DNA of 54,389 bases from a bacterium. GTDB taxonomy: Bacteria; Hinthialibacterota; Hinthialibacteria; Hinthialibacterales; Hinthialibacteraceae. Shown in pieces: positions 30,662 through 45,400 of this stretch. The notes under the pieces are model-generated. The model was not told the DNA's origin and searched no databases. It saw only the letters and a list, made by a program, of their open reading frames with translations. Numbering within the stretch: position 1 is the first letter of the stretch; each line of letters starts with the position of its first letter. The DNA lies in contig WGLV01000020.1 of assembly GCA_016125385.1 (NCBI GenBank), positions 1-54,389 on the forward strand. The letters are read 5' to 3'. The position numbers and the translations under genes were made by a program.

Positions 30662-31158
30662 GTCACGGTAACCTTATCGTTGGATTTTTACATTCCCATC
30701 GATGCGGTCGTTCCTGAAGAAGTGAAATCTACACAAAGAATAGCACATTCGGGCGAGAAAATGCAATAAAAATTTTCACATAAGCTAAAATATTTAACGA
30801 GAGACGGCGGCGGGACAACCCCCTCCCTGACCTCCCCCAAACTTTGGGGGAGGAGTCAAACGCGGCTCGATTTCGACGTGAGGGCGGGTTTGAAACTCGC
30901 CCCCACACTCGTCCAATCGCAGGCGTTTTTGTTAGATCACGAAAATACATGAAGGGCACGAAGAACGGGATGTTTTGTTCGTTAACGATTGGTTGGTAAG
31001 ATTTGGCAGGCTGCTGGGGCACGTTGCAATGGCGCCCCTACATGGGAGCGGTTACGCTGAGCGGGATGATGGACGCGCAGCGCGGCGCCGCAGAAAAGCT
31101 GGCGAATTTTTTTATGCGGTGGGTTAAAAATGACTAGGCCTGCACGGCTAACTGCCAA
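30662..31158. other. Gene-free gap with a long palindrome
   Basis: No credible gene is seen. The stretch 30817-30904 belongs to a repeat family also present at 38179-38592. It contains a near-perfect palindrome (30831-30853: CCTCCCCCAAA, a central C, TTTGGGGGAGG). The rest has no clear feature. Confidence 0.6.
30817..30904. repeat. CCTCCCCC-palindrome repeat, single copy
   Basis: The start (CAACCCCCTCCCT then ACCTCCCCCA) matches 38179-38200 and the end (GGCTCGATTTCGACG through AACTCGCCCC) matches 38552-38592 with a few changes. The copy therefore looks like a full unit lacking the internal 108-bp tandem block. Confidence 0.8.
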
Positions 31159-32910
31159 TCAATCCTCCTCCGGGAATTGGAGCCAGGTTTCGACGAGGAC
31201 GGGGCGTTCCTGAGCGTTGAGGACGTAGTCGCGGACATAGGGCTGGATCATGCTGTAACGGCGAGTGAAATAAATAAACAGCCAGGGCGCGTCGTCCCAG
31301 GCGATCTGTTCGGCCTGCTGATAGAGTTTCTCGCGGCGAGCGGGGTTCCCTTCCCGCCCCGCTTCTTCGAAGAGGCGGTCGTACTCAGGGTTGGCGTAGC
31401 GCGCGTAGTTGGTCCCCTTCGGAGTGAAATTCTTTCCCCACAGGCAGGCGAGAAAGTTTTCAGGATCGGGATAGTCGGCGATCCAGCCGAGACGGAAGAA
31501 GCTCGACTTGCCCTCGTCGACATTGTCGAGATGCTGCGCCCATTCAACAATGCGCAGGCGCAGCGTGACGCCGCTGTCGGCCAACTGGTCCTGAATGGCT
31601 TCGGCGATCACCTCGTTGGTGGTTCCACCGCTGTTGAGATCGAGGGTGAGTTCGCCAAGCCCCTCGCCGCCCGGGTAGCCCGCCTCGGCAAGCAGCGCCT
31701 TCGCCTTGTCGGGGTGGTAGCCGTAGCCCTCGGTGACGCTCTGGTAATGAGGCATGGTGCGCGGGACGATCGAGCGCGCGGGCGCGCCGGCGCCGAACAG
31801 CACGTAATCAATGATCGCCTGTCGGTCGATGGCGTAGTTGAACGCCTGACGCACGCGCTTGTCGTCATACGGCTTTTTGGTGACGTTGAAGCCGTAATAC
31901 TGCGAGACCATCAGTTCTTTATTCAATATCTGATATTTCTGGTATTCGGGCCGGACGTTGCCGTCTTCGTCCATCACGTTGAGCCAGAGGTCTTCAGGGA
32001 TGGAGTAAAGGCGGTCGAGGTTGCCTGAATCGAACTCGATGAACTCGATCTTGAAGTCGGGGATGAAGGTGAATCGGACTCCGTCGAGATAAGGCAGGCG
32101 GACGCCGTCGGCGTCGGTGCGCCAGTAATGGTCGTTGCGCACCATGAGAATCTCGCGGCCCGGCAGCCAGTGGACATAGCGGAAGGGGCCGGTTCCGACG
32201 GGATGCTGAAAGAAGTCTTCGCCGTAGTATTTGACCGCCTCGGGCGCGGTGATATAGCAGTAGGTCATCGCCAGACGCTGGATGAACGAGGTGAAGGGCG
32301 TGTGGAGGCGAATGCTGAAGGTGTAATCATCGGGAATCTCGAAGCCCTCGACGCGCTGCGCCTCTTTTTTGTGGAAGGCCTCGGCGCCGATGACGACGTC
32401 GAGAAAAACCCACGCGCCGGTCGACTGGGTGGTATCGTCAAGCAGACGGCTGAAAGAATAGTCGATATCGTGGGCGGTCAGTTCGCGGCCCTCGCCGCCG
32501 GGGAAGCAGGGGTCGTCGTGAAAGCGGACGCCCTTGCGGATGTGAAAGGTGTAGAGCAGGCCGTCATCAGAGATTTCATACGACTCGGCGAGACCGGGGA
32601 CGATTTCGAGATTGGGGTCGAGATTGACGAGGGCGTCGTAGATCTGGGTGCAGACGGCGGTGGCGGACGATTCGCCGGTGCGGACCGGGTCGAGGCTGCG
32701 CGGCTGGGCGGATTCATTGACGCGCATGAGGCCGCCCAGCGTCTTGCCGGAGGGGGTGACCTGACCGGCGCGCGTGCTGGCGCCCTCGGGCAGCTCGGTA
32801 AACGGGACGTGCGCGCCCCCGGCGTTGGAACCGCATGAAACCGCCAGAAGAAGCGCGGCCGGCAGCGCGGCGAGGAAGCAATACGCGGCGAGGCGTGATC
32901 GAGCCATCAT
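31159..32910 (-). CDS. Oligopeptide-type ABC transporter substrate-binding lipoprotein
   Basis: The 583-residue protein is a family 5 solute-binding protein (DppA/OppA type). It has a lipoprotein signal ending LLLAVSC, then the family phrase PRSLDPVRTGESSATAV, YEISDDGLLYTFHIRKGVRFHD, and the C-terminal segments VRQAFNYAIDRQAII and DPENFLACLWG. It would capture peptides or similar solutes outside the inner membrane and deliver them to a permease. No permease or ATPase is nearby, so the transporter partner is elsewhere. Its ATGATG start overlaps the stop of the helicase-associated gene upstream, implying translational coupling to DNA-repair-like genes, an unexpected pairing. Confidence 0.92.
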   Translation of the reverse strand: MMARSRLAAYCFLAALPAALLLAVSCGSNAGGAHVPFTELPEGASTRAGQVTPSGKTLGGLMRVNESAQPRSLDPVRTGESSATAVCTQIYDALVNLDPNLEIVPGLAESYEISDDGLLYTFHIRKGVRFHDDPCFPGGEGRELTAHDIDYSFSRLLDDTTQSTGAWVFLDVVIGAEAFHKKEAQRVEGFEIPDDYTFSIRLHTPFTSFIQRLAMTYCYITAPEAVKYYGEDFFQHPVGTGPFRYVHWLPGREILMVRNDHYWRTDADGVRLPYLDGVRFTFIPDFKIEFIEFDSGNLDRLYSIPEDLWLNVMDEDGNVRPEYQKYQILNKELMVSQYYGFNVTKKPYDDKRVRQAFNYAIDRQAIIDYVLFGAGAPARSIVPRTMPHYQSVTEGYGYHPDKAKALLAEAGYPGGEGLGELTLDLNSGGTTNEVIAEAIQDQLADSGVTLRLRIVEWAQHLDNVDEGKSSFFRLGWIADYPDPENFLACLWGKNFTPKGTNYARYANPEYDRLFEEAGREGNPARREKLYQQAEQIAWDDAPWLFIYFTRRYSMIQPYVRDYVLNAQERPVLVETWLQFPEED

Positions 32911-34454
32911 GTTTTCTTTCGCGAAGAATCGGTGAACACGTTGTCGTGCGAGGGTTCATACCCGCGCTCGCGGAACAGTTTGAACAGGCGGCGCGCTTCG
33001 CGTTCAGAGACGGCGAAACAGGCGCCGGATATGCGTTCCTCCAGGGCGCCGTTGGCGTCGGGGAGGTGGGTGATCTCTTCGGCGAGTTCTGGGCCGTCGC
33101 ACTCGACCAGCACCACGCGGCGGAAGCGGATGCGCCCGTAGCGCGCGCCCCACTCTTCGAGACTGAAGCGCACCAGATCGGGCACGCGGCCGCCGCTGAG
33201 TTCATCGAGAAAGGCGAGGACGGCGTCGAGCGTCCAGCCGCGGCGCATCGATTTGAGCAGGGCTCCCTGCGAGAGGTGATATTCGGTCATGACGTCGCGG
33301 CGGCGGAATTCGGCGATCTGGTCGAGCCGCCAGAGCAGGTCGTAACTCGCGCCGGGCGGGGCCAGCAACTCGAAATTGGGCTGGATCATGGCGGGCGCGG
33401 CGGGCTCAGGCTCGATGAAGACGGTCTCTTCAAGCGACAGCCAGCGGCGGCCCCATCCGGTCAGCGCGGCCAGCGCGGGGCGTTCGCGGTCATCAAGCGA
33501 AATGACGCCGGCGGCGTCGAGCCAGCGCAGGCGCTCGATCAAGGCTTCACGCGGCACGGGGTCGCTTTCTTCCGGCCAGGCGTTGAGCTCCAACTCGGCG
33601 AGCAGATCGTCCACGGCGTAGAGTTCGCCGGAAGCGGGCGGGTTTTCGCCTTCCACCGAGGCGAACAGCGCGAGCAGGCGCTGCATCTCACGGCTTCGCG
33701 ACACGCGCGACGACACAATGAAACGGATCAGCTCGCGGCGGTTTTCGTATTCTCCATGACCGAGCCAGCGGGCGGCTTCATCGGTCAGTTCCAGCTCGCT
33801 TTCTTCGACGCGGGCCAGCCCGGCGTGGACGACGAAATCGAGCGCGAACTGGAAGCGGCTCTCCGAGGCGAGGCCCTCGCCGATGCGCTGAGTCCACAGT
33901 TCGAAGATGCGTTTGTGAAGGGCGCCTTTCTGGGTCTGGCGGACGCGGACGTGCAACAGCACGCAGAGCAGATGAAAGACCGCTTCGAGCGCGATGTGGC
34001 GCTGCGGCGGCATCGGGCTGGCCGGGCCGGGACGCGGCGTCAGCGCTTTGAACTGGCCGCGAAACACGTCAAGTAATGACTTGCGCAGCTCATGCGGCAG
34101 AATCACGCGGCCATTACGGCGGAAGTCGTCGGGGAAAATGAGGCCCAGCGCGGCGATCTCTTCAACGGCGCCGGGCAGGTGTTCAGGCTCGACCCACGGC
34201 GCGGCCAGATCGGCGCCAAGCTCAATGGTTTCGTGTTCGGGCGGAGTGAAGAATACGAGCGCGCGCAACAGGCCGCGATGAGAATGAGGCAGCTCGGCGG
34301 TCAGTTCGGCGAGGAACTCCACGTCGCGATAACGCGCGCCGATGGATTGCAGCAGGTTGCGTTTGGAGGGCGAATAGACGCCCACGCCGAATGAATCGGC
34401 GATGCGCTGAAGGCGCTCGTGCGGGATATGAGTCAGCATCTGGTACAGGTTCAT
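32907..34454 (-). CDS. Helicase-associated protein with XPB/Ssl2-like C-terminal domain
   Basis: The 515-residue protein is not itself a helicase; no Walker motifs are seen. Residues about 365-440 (IQPNFELLAPPGASYDLLWR, then EYHLSQGALLKSMRRGW) resemble the Helicase_C_3 / XPB-Ssl2-like domain that accompanies bacterial XPB. The N-terminal half is helical. The gene lies 12 bases downstream of the XPB-type helicase, and such neighbour pairs are known in actinobacteria. Probably a regulatory or DNA-binding partner of the helicase. It ends in the start of the lipoprotein gene. Confidence 0.82.
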   Translation of the reverse strand: MNLYQMLTHIPHERLQRIADSFGVGVYSPSKRNLLQSIGARYRDVEFLAELTAELPHSHRGLLRALVFFTPPEHETIELGADLAAPWVEPEHLPGAVEEIAALGLIFPDDFRRNGRVILPHELRKSLLDVFRGQFKALTPRPGPASPMPPQRHIALEAVFHLLCVLLHVRVRQTQKGALHKRIFELWTQRIGEGLASESRFQFALDFVVHAGLARVEESELELTDEAARWLGHGEYENRRELIRFIVSSRVSRSREMQRLLALFASVEGENPPASGELYAVDDLLAELELNAWPEESDPVPREALIERLRWLDAAGVISLDDRERPALAALTGWGRRWLSLEETVFIEPEPAAPAMIQPNFELLAPPGASYDLLWRLDQIAEFRRRDVMTEYHLSQGALLKSMRRGWTLDAVLAFLDELSGGRVPDLVRFSLEEWGARYGRIRFRRVVLVECDGPELAEEITHLPDANGALEERISGACFAVSEREARRLFKLFRERGYEPSHDNVFTDSSRKKT

Positions 34455-34466
34455 GGATGCGCTCGA

Positions 34467-36167
34467 TCATCCCCCCGATGGAATGGTTAACGCGGCGGCG
34501 CCGTCGATGTTGCGAATGTTGTACTGATAGCCCTGTTCGGCGAGAAAGCGCTGGCGCTTCTGGGCGAACTCGCCCTCGGAGCTGTCGCGGGTGACGATGG
34601 TATAAAAGTGAGCGACGGCGTTTTCCGCCTTGGGGCGCAGGATGCGGCCCAGCCGTTGCGCTTCTTCCTGACGCGAGCCGAACGAGCCTGAAATCTGAAT
34701 CGCGACGTTGGCCTCGGGCAGGTCGACGGCGAAGTTGGCGACCTTGGAAACCACCAGGTGCTTGATCTCGCCGTCACGGAAGCGTTTGAACAGATCGACG
34801 CGTTCGGCGTTGGGCGTCGAGCCGGTCAGCATGGGCAGATTGAACGCGCTGGCGACCACCCGCAGCTGGCGCAGGTACTGGCCGATGATGAGAACGCGGT
34901 CGTTTTGATGCGTTTTGAGCAGTTCATCGAGCACATCCATCTTCATCGGGTTTTCAGAGGCGATGCGATACTGGGCGCGCGGGGGCGACATGACGTACTC
35001 GCGGCGCTGTTCCATCGGCAGCGGGACGCGCAGTTCATGGCACTGGGCCGAGGCGATCCAGCCCTCTTTTTCAAGCACCTTCCAGGGAATATCGAAACAC
35101 TTGGGGCCGATCAGGCTGAAGACGTCGCTTTCGAGGCCGTCTTCACGCACCAGGGTGGCGGTGAGGCCAAGACGGCGGCGCGCCTGAATGTCGGCGGTGA
35201 TGCGAAAGATGGGCGCGGGCAGAAGATGGACCTCGTCATAGATGATCAGGCCCCAGTCCTGCGCCTCGAACAGCTTGAGATGGGGGTATTCATCGCTTTT
35301 CTTTTTTCGATAGGTCAGAATCTGATAGGTGGCGATGGTGACCGGCCCGATGTTTTTTTCTTCGCCGCTGTATTCACACACTTCGGCATCGGTCAGGGTG
35401 GTTTTTTCGAGAATTTCGCGGCGCCACTGGCGCAGAGCGACCACGTTCGTCACCAGAATGAGGGTGCGTTTTTTGAGCCGCGCCATGACGCCGAGACCGA
35501 TGACGGTTTTGCCCGCTCCGCAGGGCAACACGATGGCGCCGCTGCCGCCCGCCGCGCTGCCGTCGCGGTGAAACGCGGAGACGGCCGCGCTCTGGTAATC
35601 GCGCAGGGCGAAGGATTTTCCATTAGCGAGCCGGCCGGAGAGATGTACGTCGAGCTCTTCGCCTTCGACGTATCCGGCGAGGTCGCGCACGGGAAAGCCG
35701 ATTTTGATGAGTTCCTGCTTGAGATGACCGCGATAAGCGCCGCCGATCAGGATGGTGTTGGGATCGATGCGCTCTTCGACGAACGCCTGGGTTCGCTTGT
35801 GGCGGCTGATTTCTTCGATGAGATAGGCGTCCTGACCGCGCAACAGAAGGCGGCCGCCGTCGCGCTCGAGCGTCAGGCGCCCGTAGCGGTTCATGTATTC
35901 GGCGATATCGGTCTCGACGTTGCCGGGGATGGGATAGCGCGAGAAGCGGCGCAGGGTTTCAAGCACGGTCTCGGACTTCATGCCCGCGCTGGCCGCGTTC
36001 CACAAAGACAGCGGCGTGATCTGATAGGTATGGATGTGTTCGGGACACTTGATCAGTTCAGCGAACGCGCCGAGGGCGTCGCGCGCCTCTTCAAACGCGG
36101 GCGACTCTACTTCAACAAAGACGGTGCGGTCGCTCTGAACGATAATCGGTTTATCAGCGGACGTCAT
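34467..36167 (-). CDS. XPB/Rad25-type DNA repair helicase
   Basis: The 566-residue protein is an SF2 helicase of the XPB type. It has an N-terminal domain (1-180), Walker A PCGAGKT (215-221), the DEVH box (311-314), and the XPB-specific RED motif (341-343 in ATLVREDG). The segment KKKSDEYPHLKLF (288-300) resembles the thumb region. The second RecA-like domain has the GSFGSRQEEAQRLGRILRPK arginine-finger region. XPB opens DNA 3'-5' in eukaryotic and archaeal repair; bacterial forms are less studied and may act in nucleotide excision repair. It starts the run helicase, helicase-associated protein, lipoprotein. Confidence 0.93.
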   Translation of the reverse strand: MTSADKPIIVQSDRTVFVEVESPAFEEARDALGAFAELIKCPEHIHTYQITPLSLWNAASAGMKSETVLETLRRFSRYPIPGNVETDIAEYMNRYGRLTLERDGGRLLLRGQDAYLIEEISRHKRTQAFVEERIDPNTILIGGAYRGHLKQELIKIGFPVRDLAGYVEGEELDVHLSGRLANGKSFALRDYQSAAVSAFHRDGSAAGGSGAIVLPCGAGKTVIGLGVMARLKKRTLILVTNVVALRQWRREILEKTTLTDAEVCEYSGEEKNIGPVTIATYQILTYRKKKSDEYPHLKLFEAQDWGLIIYDEVHLLPAPIFRITADIQARRRLGLTATLVREDGLESDVFSLIGPKCFDIPWKVLEKEGWIASAQCHELRVPLPMEQRREYVMSPPRAQYRIASENPMKMDVLDELLKTHQNDRVLIIGQYLRQLRVVASAFNLPMLTGSTPNAERVDLFKRFRDGEIKHLVVSKVANFAVDLPEANVAIQISGSFGSRQEEAQRLGRILRPKAENAVAHFYTIVTRDSSEGEFAQKRQRFLAEQGYQYNIRNIDGAAALTIPSGG

Positions 36168-36382
36168 ATTTTTCAGTACCAGAGTTTTTGTGTTAACGCA
36201 TCAGGGCGGAAAACCCGCGTCGCCGTGTTTTCCACCGGGAAACCCGGATATCGGGCTACGATTCTCCCGCCGGATTTCTCGAACAAACCACCTCGCGCGA
36301 ACCGGCGGAGGCGCGTAAAGGTGGAAACAAAGAGTATACATCCGATACGAGTTGAATGCGAGGCAAAGGCTGAAAATGGAAA

Positions 36383-36409
36383 GCCCCGCCCGGAGGTTCC
36401 GGACGGGGC
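36383..36409 (-). terminator. Hairpin terminator after pilC/gspF
   Basis: The arms GCCCCG-C-CCGGA and TCCGG-A-CGGGGC pair with one mismatch around a GGT loop. On the minus strand a T-rich stretch (TTTCCATTTTC) follows. This separates pilC from the helicase operon. Confidence 0.65.
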
Positions 36410-36436
36410 CGAGAGTGACGAACCTTGTTCGCGCGT

Positions 36437-38178: not shown

Positions 38179-38592
38179 AACCCCCTCCCTCACCTCCCCC
38201 AGACTTGGGGGAGGAAATCCCGCTCGATATCCGCTTACATCAGGCCCAACGAATCCGATAAGTTCGCATAGCCCAAAGACTCGGCGGCGGGCACTGCCCC
38301 CCTCCCCCAGACTTGGGGGAGGAAATCCCGCTCGATATCCACTTACATCAGGCCCAACGAGGCCGATAAGTTCGCACAGCCCAAAGACTCGGCGGCGGGC
38401 ACTGCCCCCCTCCCCCAGACTTGGGGGGCGGAAATCCCGCTCGATATCCACTTACATCAGGCCCAACGAATCCGAAAAGTTCGCACAGCCCAAAGACTCG
38501 GCGGCGGGCACTGCCCCCCCTCCTCCAGACTTGGGGGGGCGGAGTTAAAGGCGACTCGATTTCGACGGATTTGAGGGTTTGAAATTCGCCCC
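38179..38592. repeat. 108-bp tandem repeat with CCCCCAGACTTGGGGG hairpins
   Basis: The hairpin AGACTT centres at 38201, 38309, 38417 and 38527, giving units of 108, 108 and 110 bases. The units share the stretch CTCGATATCC followed by TTACATCAGGCCCAACGA and the end GACTCGGCGGCGGGCACTGC. Differences between copies are few. The flanks match the single repeat at 30817-30904. The 974-base gap between pilC and the orphan gene is almost wholly filled by this and family 1. Confidence 0.9.
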
Positions 38593-39142: not shown

Positions 39143-39514
39143 TCAGAAGCCGAGTTCGAGGCGGGCGGCTTCGGACATCATGTCGGGGGTCCAGGAGGGC
39201 TCCCACACGACCTCGACGCGGGCGCCGGAGACGCCCGCCACGCAGCGCACTTTGTCTTCGACCTCGCCGGGCAGGGTTCCAGCCACCGGGCAGGCGGGCG
39301 AAGTGAGCGTCATGGTGACGTCGGCGAACGCCGTATCGGGATTGTAATCGATATCGTAAATCAGCCCCAGTTCGTAGATGTCGACGGGGATCTCGGGATC
39401 GTAGCAGGTCTTGAGAATCTGCACGATACGCTCGACCACGTTGTCGTCCGGAGCGGGGCCGGGCGTGGGGGCGGCGTTTTCGTTATTGAGGGCGCTTGCC
39501 GGGTTGTCGTTCAT
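39143..39514 (-). CDS. sufT: SufT/MIP18-family iron-sulfur assembly factor
   Basis: The 123-residue protein has a DUF59/MIP18 domain: VERIVQILKTCYDPEIPVDIYELGLIYDI, where the DPEIP segment and the following cysteine-containing TLTSPACPV are the family hallmarks. SufT helps mature Fe-S proteins. The first 28 residues are a proline-rich tail not typical of the family. The start region (39486-39526) is duplicated at 39714-39754, with repeat copy B between. Last gene of the suf operon, followed by a terminator. Confidence 0.9.
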   Translation of the reverse strand: MNDNPASALNNENAAPTPGPAPDDNVVERIVQILKTCYDPEIPVDIYELGLIYDIDYNPDTAFADVTMTLTSPACPVAGTLPGEVEDKVRCVAGVSGARVEVVWEPSWTPDMMSEAARLELGF

Positions 39515-39526
39515 GGTTTACTCCGT
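39486..39526 (-). repeat. 41-bp direct repeat at the sufT start, copy 1
   Basis: This segment covers the ribosome binding site and first codons of sufT. An identical copy is at 39714-39754, 228 bases away. Read on the minus strand, the upstream copy opens a reading frame of about 22 codons that ends before the element. Confidence 0.92.
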
Positions 39527-39568
39527 AAAAATCCAGTCTGGGCCGAGTCATGAGTATATTCGTTTGAG

Positions 39569-39667
39569 ATGAATCCATTTTCACCCACCCGCCCAGCCCA
39601 CGTTCAAGGATGGCGTCGCCGGCCTTCGGCCTCCTCCGCCGATTTTTTATTCCAAAAATGGATTCAT
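39569..39667. repeat. Inverted-repeat element, copy B
   Basis: The ends ATGAATCCATTTT (39569-39581) and AAAATGGATTCAT (39655-39667) are a perfect 13-bp inverted repeat. Compared with copies A and C, one base of the 5' arm has changed together with its partner in the 3' arm. It lies between sufU and sufT, inside the 228-base interval between two direct repeats. Confidence 0.85.
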
Positions 39668-39713
39668 TCACTCCGCGCATTCAACATACATGCGTTTGCG
39701 TCTGTTTTCCCTT

Positions 39714-39754
39714 TTGAGGGCGCTTGCCGGGTTGTCGTTCATGGTTTACTCCGT
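39714..39754 (-). repeat. 41-bp direct repeat upstream of sufT, copy 2
   Basis: Identical to 39486-39526. On the minus strand it contains a start codon with a GGAG site but its reading frame soon stops. It lies just downstream of sufU (stop at 39775). Confidence 0.92.
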
Positions 39755-39774
39755 GCTTTCTTCAATTGTTTCAC

Positions 39775-40233
39775 TTACTCGGTGCTGACCGGCTCGGACT
39801 TGTCTTCAAGCGCCGCTTTCAGGGTATGCCACGCGAGGGTGGCGCATTTGACCCGCATGGGGAACTCGCGAACGCCCGCCAGCGCGGCGAGCTTCTCGAA
39901 TTCCGGCTCGCCCGATTCAAGCAGGGGGTCGGCCTGGCCCGTCACCATATCGTGAAAGGCGTTAAACAGGCGATTGGCTTCATCCAGCGTCTTGCCCTTC
40001 ACCGCTTCGGTCATCAGCGAGGCCGAGGCGGTGGAGATGGCGCAGCCAGACCCCTGAAACGAGACGTTTTTGACGCGGCCATTCTCAAGATGGAGGTACA
40101 CCGTCACCCGGTCGCCGCAGAGCGGGTTATGCCCCGCCGCGCTGCCGGTGGCGTCGCCCATTTCGAAAAAGTTCCGGGGGGCGCGGGTGTGGTCGAGAAT
40201 GACCTCCTGATACAGTTCGCTCAACTCATTCAT
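39775..40233 (-). CDS. sufU: SufU/IscU-like scaffold protein
   Basis: The 152-residue protein is a SufU-type Fe-S scaffold or zinc-dependent sulfurtransferase partner of SufS. The three conserved cysteines are visible: Cys39 in HNPLCGD, Cys64 in SGCAIS and Cys130 in VKCATLAW. The insertion between the second and third is typical of SufU. The start overlaps the sufS stop by one base (TGATG), indicating coupling. It should accept sulfur from SufS and act with SufBCD. Confidence 0.94.
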   Translation of the reverse strand: MNELSELYQEVILDHTRAPRNFFEMGDATGSAAGHNPLCGDRVTVYLHLENGRVKNVSFQGSGCAISTASASLMTEAVKGKTLDEANRLFNAFHDMVTGQADPLLESGEPEFEKLAALAGVREFPMRVKCATLAWHTLKAALEDKSEPVSTE

Positions 40234-41504
40234 CAGGCGAACATCCGAATCGTTTTCTGAATGGCCGAAGCCAGCCGGCCGATCTCGTCATGAGTATTGT
40301 AGAACGCCATCGAGGCCCGCGCAGTGGCGGGGACGTTGAAACGATCCATCAGCGGTTGCGTGCAATGATGCCCGGTTCGGACCGCGACGCCCTCGCGGTC
40401 GAGGATGGTGCCGATATCGTGCGGGTGGATTCCATCAATGACGAAGCTGACCACAGCGGCTTTTTCAGCCGCGGTTCCGACGATCTTCAGGCCGGGGATC
40501 GCCGAAAGCGTTTCGGTCGCGTAGCGCAGCAGGTCCTGCTCGCGGGCGGCGATGCGATCAAGGCCGATCGACTGGACGTAATCGAGCGCCGCGCCCAGGC
40601 CGATGGCGCCGAGGATGTCGGGGGTTCCGGCTTCGAACTTGTACGGGATGTCGTTGAACAGCGTTTTTTCAAACGACACCGAGAGAATCATGTCGCCGCC
40701 GCCCATATAGGGGGGCATGGCTTCGAGATGGTCTTTTTTTCCGTAGAGCACGCCGACGCAGGGCCCGAACACTTTGTGACCGGAGAAGACGTAAAAATCG
40801 CAATCGAGGTCCTGCACGTCGATGGCCATGTGGGGCGCGGCCTGCGCCCCGTCGAGCAGGACCGGGATCGCCTGAGCGTGGGCGAGCCCGATGATGCGCT
40901 TGACCGGGTTGATCGTGCCCAGCGCGTTGGAGACGTGGTTGACGGCGATCATGCGGGTGCGGCTGGTAATGCGATCGCCGAACGCCAGCATGTCGAGTTC
41001 GCCCTCATCGGTGACGGGCGCGACCACCAGCCTGGCGCCGGTTTTTTCACACAGCAACTGCCACGGAACGATGTTGGAGTGATGTTCCATGTGGGTGATG
41101 AGGATTTCATCGTCTTTATGGAGAACGTGCCCGCCGAAGGACGACGCGACGAGATTGATGCCTTCAGTGGCGTTGCGGACGAAGACGATTTCTTTGGCGC
41201 TGGCGGCGTTGAGAAAGGCGCGCGCCTTTTCGCGGGCGGCCTCGTGGGCGCTGGTGGAGAGTTCGCTGAGACGATGGACGCCGCGATGGATGTTGGCGTA
41301 ACAGGTTGAAGCCGCCTCGGAGATCGCGTCGATCACCGCCTGGGGCTTCTGGGCGGAGGCGGCGTTATCAAGATAGGCCAGCGGCTTACCGTGAACCGTC
41401 TGTTTCAGGATCGGGAAATCATTACGAATCCGCTCGACGTCAAGGGTCAGGTCCGGCGCCGCAGCGGCCGATTCGGGTTGCTCGATACGGGTTGCGCTGT
41501 TCAT
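40233..41504 (-). CDS. sufS: SufS-type cysteine desulfurase
   Basis: The 423-residue PLP enzyme removes sulfur from cysteine, forming a persulfide. The PLP lysine is in VFSGHKVFGPC near residue 243 and the persulfide cysteine in RTGHHCTQPLM near residue 381. The N-terminal FPILKQTVHGKPLAYLDNAA is typical of group II desulfurases (SufS rather than IscS). A 25-residue N-terminal tail is somewhat longer than usual. It is coupled to sufU downstream and follows sufD. Confidence 0.95.
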   Translation of the reverse strand: MNSATRIEQPESAAAAPDLTLDVERIRNDFPILKQTVHGKPLAYLDNAASAQKPQAVIDAISEAASTCYANIHRGVHRLSELSTSAHEAAREKARAFLNAASAKEIVFVRNATEGINLVASSFGGHVLHKDDEILITHMEHHSNIVPWQLLCEKTGARLVVAPVTDEGELDMLAFGDRITSRTRMIAVNHVSNALGTINPVKRIIGLAHAQAIPVLLDGAQAAPHMAIDVQDLDCDFYVFSGHKVFGPCVGVLYGKKDHLEAMPPYMGGGDMILSVSFEKTLFNDIPYKFEAGTPDILGAIGLGAALDYVQSIGLDRIAAREQDLLRYATETLSAIPGLKIVGTAAEKAAVVSFVIDGIHPHDIGTILDREGVAVRTGHHCTQPLMDRFNVPATARASMAFYNTHDEIGRLASAIQKTIRMFA

Positions 41505-41558
41505 ATTCGCCTCGTTTCATGCGCCTCGACAAACAGAATCAAGGCAGCCGGCGGGCGC

Positions 41559-42887
41559 TTACGCCGGCAGCCGTTCAGAGATCAGGCCTTCAAGCTCATC
41601 ACGCACTTCGGGCAGATCGATGGCTTCGACGATCTCGGCCGCGAAGGCGTAGGTCAGCATGGCGCGCGCGGCCTCGGGGCCGATGCCGCGCGCCCTCGCG
41701 TAAAAGAGGGCGTTTTCATCCAGCCGGCCGGTGGTGGCGCCGTGGGTGCATTTGACGTCGTCGGCGTAAATCTCCAGCTGGGGCATGGCGTTGATGGAGG
41801 CTTTATCCGACATCAGCAGGCTCTGGCTGGTCTGTTTGGCGTCGGTTTTCTGCGCGTCTTTCTGGACGAAGATTTTGCCTTTGAACACGCCGCTGGAATC
41901 ATCGTCGAGAATCGACTTGTACATCTCCCAGCTGCGGCAGTGCGGTTTTTCATGCAGCAGGGTGGTGTGATTGTCGACGTGTTGATCGCGATGGCCCATG
42001 ATGAGGCCGTTGAGCGTACAGTCGACGTCCTCGCCATTGAGCGACGCGGTGATATCGTTGCGCACCAGCGACCCGCCAAAGTTGAGGTTGTGATGAAGAA
42101 ATGTGGCGCCGCGGGCGAGATCGATAGTGGTGTTTGAAATATGGCTGGCCGAAGCGGCTTCACGCTGAAACTTGATGAACTGGCCGCGCGCATACTCGCC
42201 GAGCGAAATTTCAGCGACCGCGTTGGTGAGATGGTTCTCACCGCGACCGGCGAAGGTTTCAACGATTTCGAATTTTGAATTGGCGCCGGCGGCGACCAGC
42301 GTACGCGGAAACACGGCGCGCGCCCGCGAACCCGCCGAGCCGAGGTAAACCAGATGAATGGGCTTGTTCAACTCAACGCCCTGGGGGATTGAAATCAACG
42401 CGCCGTCGCGCATGAACGCCGTATTGAGCGCGGCGAAGGGATTGTCTTCATAACTGCCCTTACGCGCGAGATAGGGTTCGACCAGCGCGCCGTCCGTCTC
42501 CAACGCCTGAGCCAGACTCTGGACGCGGACGCCCTCGGGCAGGCCCCGCAGCGAGGAAAGTTCGGCGGAGAAAACGCCGTCGACCAGCACAATGCGCCAG
42601 GCGTCCAACTGAGGCAGGCGCACGGCTTCAAACGCCTCGGCGGGGTATTCGCCCGCTTGCGCGGCCAACTCGTATTCGGTCTCGGCGATGGCGCGCACGT
42701 TGGTGAAGCGCCATTCTTCAAGCCGGGTATGAGGAAAGCCCAGCTCGTTAAAGCGCTCAATGGCGCCCCGGCGGATTTCGTGCAGCCAGGCGGGCTCGTT
42801 CACAAACGACTGTTTACTCAGGGAATCGAAAGACGAAAGATAAAACGCGCGGGCGTCTTGTGCGTTCGTCGTGGATTGAGAGTTCAT
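41559..42887 (-). CDS. sufD: SufD Fe-S cluster assembly protein
   Basis: The 442-residue protein matches SufD: the N-terminal helical domain with FPHTRLEEWRFTNV, and the C-terminal beta-helix with DALIS-like ISIPQGVELNKPIHLVYLG, NGLIMGHRDQHVDNHT and KCTHGATTGRLDENALFYARARG. With SufB and SufC it forms the scaffold complex. It is followed 54 bases downstream by sufS. Confidence 0.94.
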   Translation of the reverse strand: MNSQSTTNAQDARAFYLSSFDSLSKQSFVNEPAWLHEIRRGAIERFNELGFPHTRLEEWRFTNVRAIAETEYELAAQAGEYPAEAFEAVRLPQLDAWRIVLVDGVFSAELSSLRGLPEGVRVQSLAQALETDGALVEPYLARKGSYEDNPFAALNTAFMRDGALISIPQGVELNKPIHLVYLGSAGSRARAVFPRTLVAAGANSKFEIVETFAGRGENHLTNAVAEISLGEYARGQFIKFQREAASASHISNTTIDLARGATFLHHNLNFGGSLVRNDITASLNGEDVDCTLNGLIMGHRDQHVDNHTTLLHEKPHCRSWEMYKSILDDDSSGVFKGKIFVQKDAQKTDAKQTSQSLLMSDKASINAMPQLEIYADDVKCTHGATTGRLDENALFYARARGIGPEAARAMLTYAFAAEIVEAIDLPEVRDELEGLISERLPA

Positions 42888-42959
42888 ACGTCACACCTTT
42901 TCAATTCGGTATTCGCTCGGATTCATCAGCATGGAGCGGGTCAAACAACGCATTCCAGC

Positions 42960-43715
42960 TTACGCGGCGCCCTGTTCGAGCCAGGCGTAGCCTTTTTCTT
43001 CGACCTCGTGAGCCAGTTCGCTGCCGCCGGTGCGGACGATGCGGCCATCGGCCAGAATGTGGACGATGTCAGGCTCCAGATAGTTGAGGATGCGCTGGTA
43101 GTGAGTGATGCAGACGATGGCGCGTTTTTCATCGCGCAGCTTGTTCACGCCGCCCGCCACAGTGCGCAGGGCGTCAACGTCGAGGCCGGAATCGGTCTCG
43201 TCGAGGATGGCGAGCCTGGGATCAAGCACGGCCATCTGGAAGATCTCGTTGCGCTTTTTTTCGCCGCCGGAAAAGCCCTCGTTGACGTTGCGTTTGAGCA
43301 GTTTGTCGTCGAGTTCGACCAGTTTGGCTTTTTCTTTCATGATCTTGATGAACTCGACGGCGTCGACTTCTTCAAGACCGCGATACTTGCGCACGGCATT
43401 GTAGGCGGTTTTGAGAAAGTAGGTGTTGCCCACGCCGGGAATCTCAACCGGGTATTGAAACGCCATGAAGATGCCTTCACAGGCGCGTTCATCGGGCGCC
43501 ATCTCAAGCAGGTTTTTGCCTTCGAAAATGATTTCGCCGCTGGTGACCTCGTAGGCTTCGTTGCCAGCCAGCACCTGCGAGAGCGTGCTCTTGCCGGAGC
43601 CGTTCGGCCCCATGATGGCGTGGACTTCGCCGGGATTCACCGTCAGGTTGACGCCCTTCAGAATCTGTTTGCCTTCGATGGAGGCGCAGAGGTTTTTGAT
43701 TTCAAGCAATGACAT
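42960..43715 (-). CDS. sufC: SufC ATPase
   Basis: The 251-residue ABC-type ATPase drives the SufBCD scaffold. Walker A GPNGSGKS is at residues 36-43, the signature FSGGEKKRNEI near 149 and Walker B LAILDETDSGLD near 172. No membrane segments. It lies downstream of sufB with a 242-base gap that contains repeat copy C, a long spacing for suf genes. Confidence 0.97.
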   Translation of the reverse strand: MSLLEIKNLCASIEGKQILKGVNLTVNPGEVHAIMGPNGSGKSTLSQVLAGNEAYEVTSGEIIFEGKNLLEMAPDERACEGIFMAFQYPVEIPGVGNTYFLKTAYNAVRKYRGLEEVDAVEFIKIMKEKAKLVELDDKLLKRNVNEGFSGGEKKRNEIFQMAVLDPRLAILDETDSGLDVDALRTVAGGVNKLRDEKRAIVCITHYQRILNYLEPDIVHILADGRIVRTGGSELAHEVEEKGYAWLEQGAA

Positions 43716-43796
43716 GATTCTATATCTCCAATTTATCGAGTCGTCTTCAAAATCCAGATCGAAGACAAAATTTCTAAGTCAAAAACATGATTCAGC

Positions 43797-43900
43797 ATGA
43801 ATTCATTTTCCCCCACCCGCTCTGTCCCAAATTACTGGTTGGGTTTCCTCGGCCTTCGGCCTCGTCAATCCGTTTTTTTTAAAATCGAAAATGAATTCAT
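43797..43900. repeat. Inverted-repeat element, copy C
   Basis: The ends ATGAATTCATTTTC (43797-43810) and GAAAATGAATTCAT (43887-43900) are a perfect 14-bp inverted repeat. The middle has CCTCGGCCTTCGGCCTCGTC, shared with copy A except for the hairpin loop. It lies between sufB and sufC. Confidence 0.9.
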
Positions 43901-43957
43901 CAGAGTTTCTAAATTTGAACCGGTTTGTGGTAAACGCGCCGTTCAACTTGCGCCGGA

Positions 43958-45400
<1,443 letters not shown>

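Follow-up and report, generated by a model that had tools for sequence, protein, structure and literature searches.

The conserved and informative unit of the locus described here is a pair of genes encoding an XPB helicase and a helicase-associated protein, referred to here as HAP. The original prediction, which took XPB, HAP and a lipoprotein as one coupled run, missed this pair, which is present in other phyla too. The third gene looks like a lineage-limited passenger encoding an ordinary peptide-type solute-binding protein. The reading that we favour, at slightly better than even confidence, is a two-protein XPB module plus passenger in which HAP acts as a p52-like partner of XPB. p52/Tfb2 (GTF2H4) is the TFIIH subunit that binds and regulates XPB, serving as its anchor within the human machinery for repair and transcription. 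The pairing is observed directly in the genomes, the domain common to HAP and XPB is recognized from sequence, and the likeness of the C-terminal half of HAP to p52 is indicated by profile comparisons and a predicted model.

Within the window (the whole stretch of DNA analysed, 54,389 nucleotides), the three genes form a head-to-tail run on the minus strand: XPB (34467..36167, 566 aa), HAP (32907..34454, 515 aa) and the lipoprotein (31159..32910, 583 aa). The open reading frames confirm both junctions as originally described, a gap of 12 bases between XPB and HAP and, from 32910, an ATG ATG of which the first ATG overlaps the HAP stop codon TGA (ATGA). Tight spacing is not unusual here, as 20 nt or less separates the genes in 7 of the window's 30 called pairs of same-strand neighbours. 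At other loci, overlaps counted from the first start codon give an upper limit; for G001 and G003, the lipoprotein may equally well start at an ATG lying a few bases past the HAP stop, and we therefore claim no conserved ATGA overlap. Located between PilC/GspF and XPB is a terminator-like hairpin (36382..36410, minus strand; 13 pairs with a T-rich tail) in a stretch, 36410–36382, that folds with a z of −4.4, so all three genes could share a single transcription unit. Terminator-like sites across the region number 9 (6.9 ± 3.0 in shuffles), and promoter-like sites show no excess (1, with 1.3 expected by chance).

XPB passes equivalog NF045503 (860 bits, cut-off 610) and matches ERCC3_RAD25_C, ResIII and Helicase_C, comprising two RecA-like domains, together with an N-terminal PF13625 domain (residues 8–134; 35766..36146, minus strand). 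By both its equivalog score and its domain set it is identified as an XPB/ERCC3 DNA repair helicase/translocase. Residues 356–475 of HAP (33030..33389, minus strand) also match PF13625 (Helicase_C_3; 60.4 bits, cut-off 34.2), placing HAP in this family by the curated cut-off; it passes no NCBIfam cut-off. This C-terminal domain is homologous to the XPB N-terminal domain, with bacterial XPB N-terminal domains aligning to HAP in hhalign at 98.4% and E 8.8e-15. HAP relatives in named records carry the PGAP name ‘helicase-associated domain-containing protein’, and the family name itself conveys no function.

XPB is present in 13 of 14 genomes of the phylum and HAP adjoins it in all 13, counting one HAP split over two frames (G003) and one cut by a contig end (G013); the remaining genome, G009, has neither gene. 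In a second phylum, PF13625 occurs in 37 of 40 genomes, and 26 of these 37 carry two copies on the same strand no more than 4.0 kb apart. A further phylum has a single PF13625 match in 29 of its 96 PF13625-bearing genomes, and of the 67 that remain at least 35 have their two copies apart. Of 14 control genomes, Corynebacterium glutamicum alone contains a PF13625 match. Among 33 matches in named records, five were examined (Paenibacillus cellulosilyticus, Deinococcus sp. QL22, Gloeocapsopsis, Actinomyces and Tsukamurella), and in each of them a gene with PF13625 or the ‘helicase-associated’ name is no more than 3.5 kb from XPB; the XPB genes of Cysteiniphilum and Facilibium have a HAP-like gene immediately upstream. 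HAP is not a universal companion of XPB, being absent from the limited stretches available around three XPB loci (L095, L102 and L185).

A model of HAP residues 352–515 (pLDDT 83.2) aligns with residues 305–459 of p52, and each of its 37 Foldseek matches at E ≤ 1e-3 comes from an entry that contains TFIIH. It matches p52 over 143 residues, with an r.m.s.d. of 5.4, and XPB over 92 residues, confined to the N-terminal domain, both with a Z-score of 14.2; four of the seven rows in the model's alignment are XPB. On the PF13625 match and this model, HAP carries, as p52 does, a clutch domain folded like the XPB N-terminal domain. A full-length model built from the single sequence reached a pLDDT of 41 and was set aside. 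An α/β segment at the HAP C terminus (residues about 442–498; 32961..33131, minus strand), seen in the model only, is perhaps p8/p52-CTD-like, with a fold match little above background: against 3dom_B the Z-score is 5.6 (r.m.s.d. of 2.2 over 56 residues), and against p8 (2jnj) it is 4.0, unrelated chains scoring up to 4.8. The C-terminal 71 residues retrieve neither p52 nor p8 from the PDB, with repeat proteins and ribosomal S15 heading the matches, and a single HAP (L089) matches the Tfb5 Pfam family, at E 0.32. The C-terminal model has no match among viral structures at E ≤ 0.001, and no HAP relatives were found in viral contigs.

The best PDB match of the phylum's HAP profile is p52 (E 1.3e-3, and only 0.026 for the best single stretch), with XPB at 0.44, and a profile of the C-terminal half matches p52 at 2.5e-5 in an alignment that also covers the stretch before the clutch; with a more diverse or C-terminal-half HAP alignment, XPB outscores p52. 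In hhalign, HAP aligns with p52 at 91.5% (E 8.6e-7) and XPB with p52 at E 5.3e-4, the p52 profile being biased towards HAP, as it is built from three sequences, stops within the clutch and contains a stretch missing from XPB. Of 17 aligned HAPs, 7 have sub-threshold matches to the Tfb2 Pfam family (PF03849; best E 9.4e-6), three of these matches beginning 53–100 residues before PF13625; a set of 10 XPBs has none at E ≤ 10. Even the highest-scoring HAP, at 25.2 bits, falls short of the Tfb2 gathering score (34.5), the window's own HAP has no match at E ≤ 10, and the HAPs of four named plasmid records (Paenibacillus, Deinococcus, Actinomyces and Gloeocapsopsis) have none; we therefore call the protein ‘p52-like’ and not ‘a p52’. 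The Cysteiniphilum HAP likewise lacks a Tfb2 match. Although p52/Tfb2 alignments begin as far as about 100 residues ahead of the clutch, the N-terminal half of HAP alone retrieves no p52 in the PDB profile search (hhalign against p52, 0.8%) and yields six weak matches (MarR-type regulators, SNF8 and CIP2A) at E 0.084 or worse.

In TFIIH, the XPB N-terminal domain is accompanied by a same-fold domain, the clutch, carried on the separate partner p52 (PMC6422496), an arrangement that the bacterial proteins resemble. They differ in that the bacterial pair consists of two genes only, is known from sequence and model, and has a HAP N-terminal half not recognisably p52. The archaeal XPB partner Bax1 is a nuclease (PMC3353954 and PMC13024598), and the two systems are alike in that a prokaryotic XPB has a dedicated partner; in contrast to Bax1, the window HAP matches no Pfam nuclease family, and on that basis it is not assigned to the Bax1 type. 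According to the 2012 paper (PMC3353954), bacteria had yielded no homologue of p52. Searches on a bacterial p52, on XPB partners and on the name of the PF13625 family, in a library outside which fall preprints and most subscription papers, gave no title or abstract opening that describes such a protein.

HAP could be an XPB partner whose clutch-like domain arose independently, through duplication of the XPB N-terminal domain in bacteria, its likeness to p52 being convergence on the same docking solution; we regard this as a substantial possibility, held at distinctly less than even confidence. Consistent with it, HAP is nearer to the XPB N-terminal domain than to p52 in the hhalign comparisons above, its N-terminal half lacks p52 likeness, the HAPs of the four named genomes lack Tfb2 matches, and the grouping of p52 with XPB survives the AU test (p-AU 0.45). 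Common descent with p52 is favoured, however, by the restriction of Tfb2 matches to HAPs, by the extension of p52/Tfb2 matches into the stretch N-terminal to the clutch, and by the clutch tree, which sets p52 among the HAPs (support of only 84/92, and of 80/83, unstarred). That the pair is instead a mobile or anti-phage defence system and not a housekeeping module is very improbable. XPB does match the PADLOC defence helicase PbeA (E 9.2e-25) across the helicase domain common to both, some named copies lie on plasmid records, and a scan of four HAPs gave two marginal PADLOC matches (E 0.0012 and 0.0056) for one of them (L096) and a match to a CRISPR-associated WYL model (5.7e-5) for another (L182). 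The window HAP and that of L085, however, have no PADLOC match at E ≤ 0.01, XPB passes a repair-helicase equivalog, and the same Suf/PilC block adjoins the pair in four of six family members (G000, G001, G002 and G005).

The lipoprotein matches SBP_bac_5 (PF00496; 317 bits, cut-off 32.4), its lipoprotein status and extracytoplasmic location being read by eye from the N-terminal signal sequence. It is a member of the family of oligopeptide/dipeptide-binding lipoproteins, but reaches no specific NCBIfam equivalog cut-off and has no permease gene on its contig (C22), which holds none of the genome's 16 BPD_transp_1 matches; the locus thus lacks the adjacent permease genes of a complete Dpp/Opp ABC importer. 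The original prediction raised the possibility that an imported signal or nucleotide fragment connects with repair or competence. A single functional system of this kind, with an imported peptide or nucleotide fragment signalling to repair, now appears improbable. In its favour are the tightly joined, same-direction arrangement in G000, G001 and G003 and the 56–65% identity of the linked lipoproteins to the window's, because of which the linked lipoprotein seems to be under selection. Against it, the three-gene order is confined to those 3 of 13 XPB-bearing genomes, all of one family, and the lipoprotein is not behind XPB–HAP in the other 10 (in G013 as judged from a second contig carrying the end of its HAP), so the coupling is rejected as a conserved system. 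G005 lacks the lipoprotein at the locus despite retaining homologues of window genes on both flanks. None of the apparent orthologues in G006, G010, G012 and G013 is near XPB; the neighbours are histidine kinase and glycosyltransferase/carbamoyltransferase genes in G006, a transketolase gene in G010 and an ABC permease gene in G013. The protein is, moreover, apparently extracytoplasmic, and the run encodes no membrane partner. The absence of the lipoprotein gene beside XPB in related genomes, set by the original prediction as its own refutation, is largely borne out for a repair–import system. The originally suggested accident of gene order fits the lipoprotein. The lipoprotein would have come to stand behind XPB–HAP in part of one family, any co-transcription being by position only, and it may function with permeases encoded elsewhere.

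As a p52-like partner, HAP would bind XPB through its clutch-like domain, pairing with the homologous XPB N-terminal domain as the proposed docking site, and its N-terminal part, perhaps winged-helix-like, would supply a scaffold or contacts with DNA or protein. By analogy with p52 in TFIIH, the two would together position the XPB ATPase on damaged or stalled DNA and control its activity, which would give HAP a role in repair. More tentatively, and at well below even confidence, XPB–HAP may be a bacterial counterpart, possibly the forerunner, of the TFIIH XPB–p52 core, a widespread two-protein machine in which the HAP clutch and p8-like C-terminal segment would mirror the same two XPB N-terminal segments, so that no p8 is needed. 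With a gene for a p52-like neighbour present in several bacterial phyla, the action of bacterial XPB and the identity of its partner can be tested directly in cultured bacteria, Paenibacillus and Deinococcus among them. XPB–HAP bears on the origin of the TFIIH core; were the counterpart reading true, eukaryotic p52 would have descended from bacterial HAP.

All three open reading frames of the original prediction, with their strand and junctions, were confirmed on the sequence: XPB (34467–36167), a helicase-associated protein (HAP, 32907–34454) and a lipoprotein (31159–32910), all on the reverse strand. XPB scores 860 bits against a cut-off of 610 for the NCBIfam repair-helicase equivalog, PF13625, a domain common to the XPB N terminus and the C-terminal half of HAP, lies at HAP residues 356–475, and the third protein is by family search a family 5 solute-binding protein (SBP_bac_5) with a lipoprotein-type N terminus, as judged by eye. 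Between PilC and XPB, 3′ of PilC, is a strong hairpin with a T-rich tail, so the trio may form a single transcript; close spacing alone is common in the window (20 nt or less in 7 of 30 same-strand neighbour pairs).

Flanking the PilC–XPB–HAP–lipoprotein block on both sides are copies, exact or with up to three mismatches, of a dispersed palindrome, CCTCCCCCARACTTKGGGGGAGG (30831–30853 and 38193–38541; 28 exact places among the genome matches listed), which could promote rearrangement of the block. A 108-nt unit is present at 38193–38517 in three near-tandem copies, 89–96% like the first. Six genes at 39143–45400, which we take to encode SufB, SufC, SufD, cysteine desulfurase, a SufU-like and a MIP18-like protein, are retained with PilC–XPB in genomes G001, G002 and G005.

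The three-gene order is not generally kept among relatives: the lipoprotein gene directly follows HAP only in G000, G001 and G003 of the 13 XPB-bearing genomes of the phylum. In G005 it is absent at the locus, though both flanks are retained: one consists of PilC–XPB–HAP, and the other has homologues of window genes 26756, 24417 and 22492. G000 is sister to G001 in the XPB tree (support 99/99), and G003 pairs with G002 (88/93, not starred), which is without the lipoprotein gene; given this grouping, one gain with a loss and repeated losses are both possible. Apparent orthologues (42–51% identity by segment) occur in G006, G010, G012 and G013 on contigs other than those carrying XPB, and the neighbours scanned are histidine kinase and glycosyltransferase/carbamoyltransferase genes in G006, a transketolase gene in G010 and, coming next in G013, a permease gene. 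Two of the four SBP_bac_5 genes in the window's genome are adjoined by permease pairs; the window lipoprotein and the gene on contig C68 have no adjoining pair, and a permease pair lies on contig C18, which is without any SBP_bac_5. Most simply, the lipoprotein is read as an orphan binding protein whose gene came to lie behind XPB and HAP.

XPB is present in 13 of the 14 genomes sampled from the phylum, each time with HAP immediately beside it on the same strand. The HAP gene of G013 is interrupted by a contig end, its remaining end lying on another contig. That of G003 (L084:12170–13748) is broken over two reading frames, by either a frameshift or an assembly error, with XPB and the lipoprotein intact.

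In two further phyla the XPB or HAP identity of PF13625 copies was read from sequence for some loci only: in one, 37 of 40 genomes have the domain, with two copies on one strand at most 4.0 kb apart in 26, 6.5 kb apart in one, and copies on different contigs, single or fragmentary in ten; in the other, 96 of 120 have it, 29 with one match and 67 with two, the two copies lying, by eye, within ~3.2 kb in at least 20 and apart in at least 35. Five of 33 matches among named records were inspected for a PF13625 or 'helicase-associated' gene near XPB. The HAP gene adjoins XPB with overlapping ends in Paenibacillus, is separated from it by one small gene in Deinococcus, and lies one small gene away on the opposite strand in Actinomyces; a HAP-like gene adjoins XPB on its upstream side in Gloeocapsopsis (31.5 bits, below the PF13625 cut-off of 34.2), and in Tsukamurella, by annotation only, a 'helicase-associated' gene is five genes away. 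The Deinococcus sp. QL22 gene between the two (L207:6744–7043) is a 99-aa ORF with no Pfam match that overlaps the HAP start.

The order is reversed in the gammaproteobacteria Cysteiniphilum and Facilibium, where a HAP-like gene, assigned by the HAP profile at 22–24 bits and weak by Pfam in Cysteiniphilum (15.6 bits), immediately precedes XPB without a gap (L103:1886–5254, L104:33–3419). Ahead of both genes at L103 is a 451-aa protein with no Pfam match. The limited stretches of loci L095 (G027), L185 and L102 showed no HAP next to XPB. HAPs of another phylum are ~910–920 aa long (L094, L182–L184). The C terminus of one (L182, 313–3078) has a WYL-domain match (21.1 bits against a Pfam cut-off of 21.8, E 3.2e-4; PADLOC, 5.7e-5), which hints at added sensing in that phylum and at an XPB partner with a sensing role.

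At its C terminus HAP carries a domain homologous to the one at the XPB N terminus (hhalign 98.4%, E 8.8e-15). In eukaryotic TFIIH, the clutch domain (306–399) of p52/Tfb2, the subunit that holds XPB, is described as having the same fold and pairing pseudo-symmetrically with the XPB N-terminal domain (PMC6422496), and p52 is reported to stimulate the XPB ATPase (PMC3353954) and, with p8, also to limit its speed (PMC7708078). HAP was therefore compared with p52. Against the PDB, the phylum's HAP profile placed p52 on top (E 1.3e-3, best single stretch 0.026; XPB 0.44); a more diverse profile placed XPB first (7.5e-7; p52 2.7e-4), and the C-terminal half gave 5.5e-7 for XPB and 2.5e-5 for p52. 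Pfam Tfb2 matches occur in 7 of 17 aligned HAPs, all under the cut-off (best 9.4e-6), those in L082, L085 and L086 starting 53–100 residues ahead of the PF13625 domain, and at E 0.02–0.03 in the L094 and L182 HAPs outside that alignment. The scan found none in the window HAP, the Cysteiniphilum HAP or four HAPs from named plasmid records, nor, at E ≤ 10, in ten XPBs. By hhalign, HAP–p52 reached 91.5% (E 8.6e-7) and XPB–p52 30.6% (E 5.3e-4), with a three-sequence p52 profile that stops inside the clutch and takes in a preceding stretch absent from XPB.

A model of HAP residues 352–515 (pLDDT 83.2, pTM 0.61) was built from three HAP and four XPB rows; as the XPB rows influenced its shape, it demonstrates a common fold rather than descent. 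Foldseek gave 37 matches at E ≤ 1e-3, every one a chain from a TFIIH-containing entry, XPB and p52 being told apart by PDB-search names, lengths and numbering. VIA-align gave Z 14.2 both for p52 (8ebu_D; 143 residues, 305–459, rmsd 5.4) and for XPB (7egb_6; 92 residues, rmsd 1.5); by aligned length, p52 spans the two parts of the model, whereas XPB is limited to the first. The high whole-length rmsd suggests that the two modelled parts are set at a different orientation. Model segment 91–147 alone matched 3dom_B, a chain of a Tfb5–Tfb2 complex (Z 5.6), and p8 (2jnj, Z 4.0), little above unrelated chains (Z 4.8 and below).

Neither the HAP N-terminal half (PDB profile search, hhalign) nor the C-terminal 71 residues (PDB search) found p52 when used alone. 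A clutch tree (40 rows, 98 columns) separates XPB, human XPB included, from HAP and p52 at 84/92, unstarred, and does not reject a p52–XPB grouping (p-AU 0.45). That HAP works like p52 is thus better supported than that HAP is p52.

According to a 2012 paper (PMC3353954), bacteria had yielded no homologue of p52, and bacterial and archaeal XPB function has been termed more elusive (PMC13024598, 2026). Our search of journal articles, mostly open-access, found no paper on PF13625 or the PGAP family 'helicase-associated domain-containing protein'; of six papers listed for homologues of TFIIH or p52 in bacteria, none deals with the subject as judged from its title and the opening of its abstract. 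XPB and HAP are paired as genes and have a fold in common. We infer that HAP binds and regulates XPB in a repair role: its clutch-like domain would dock onto the N-terminal domain of XPB, and the C-terminal segment of HAP, together with its N-terminal part, would set the position of XPB and adjust its ATPase on DNA.
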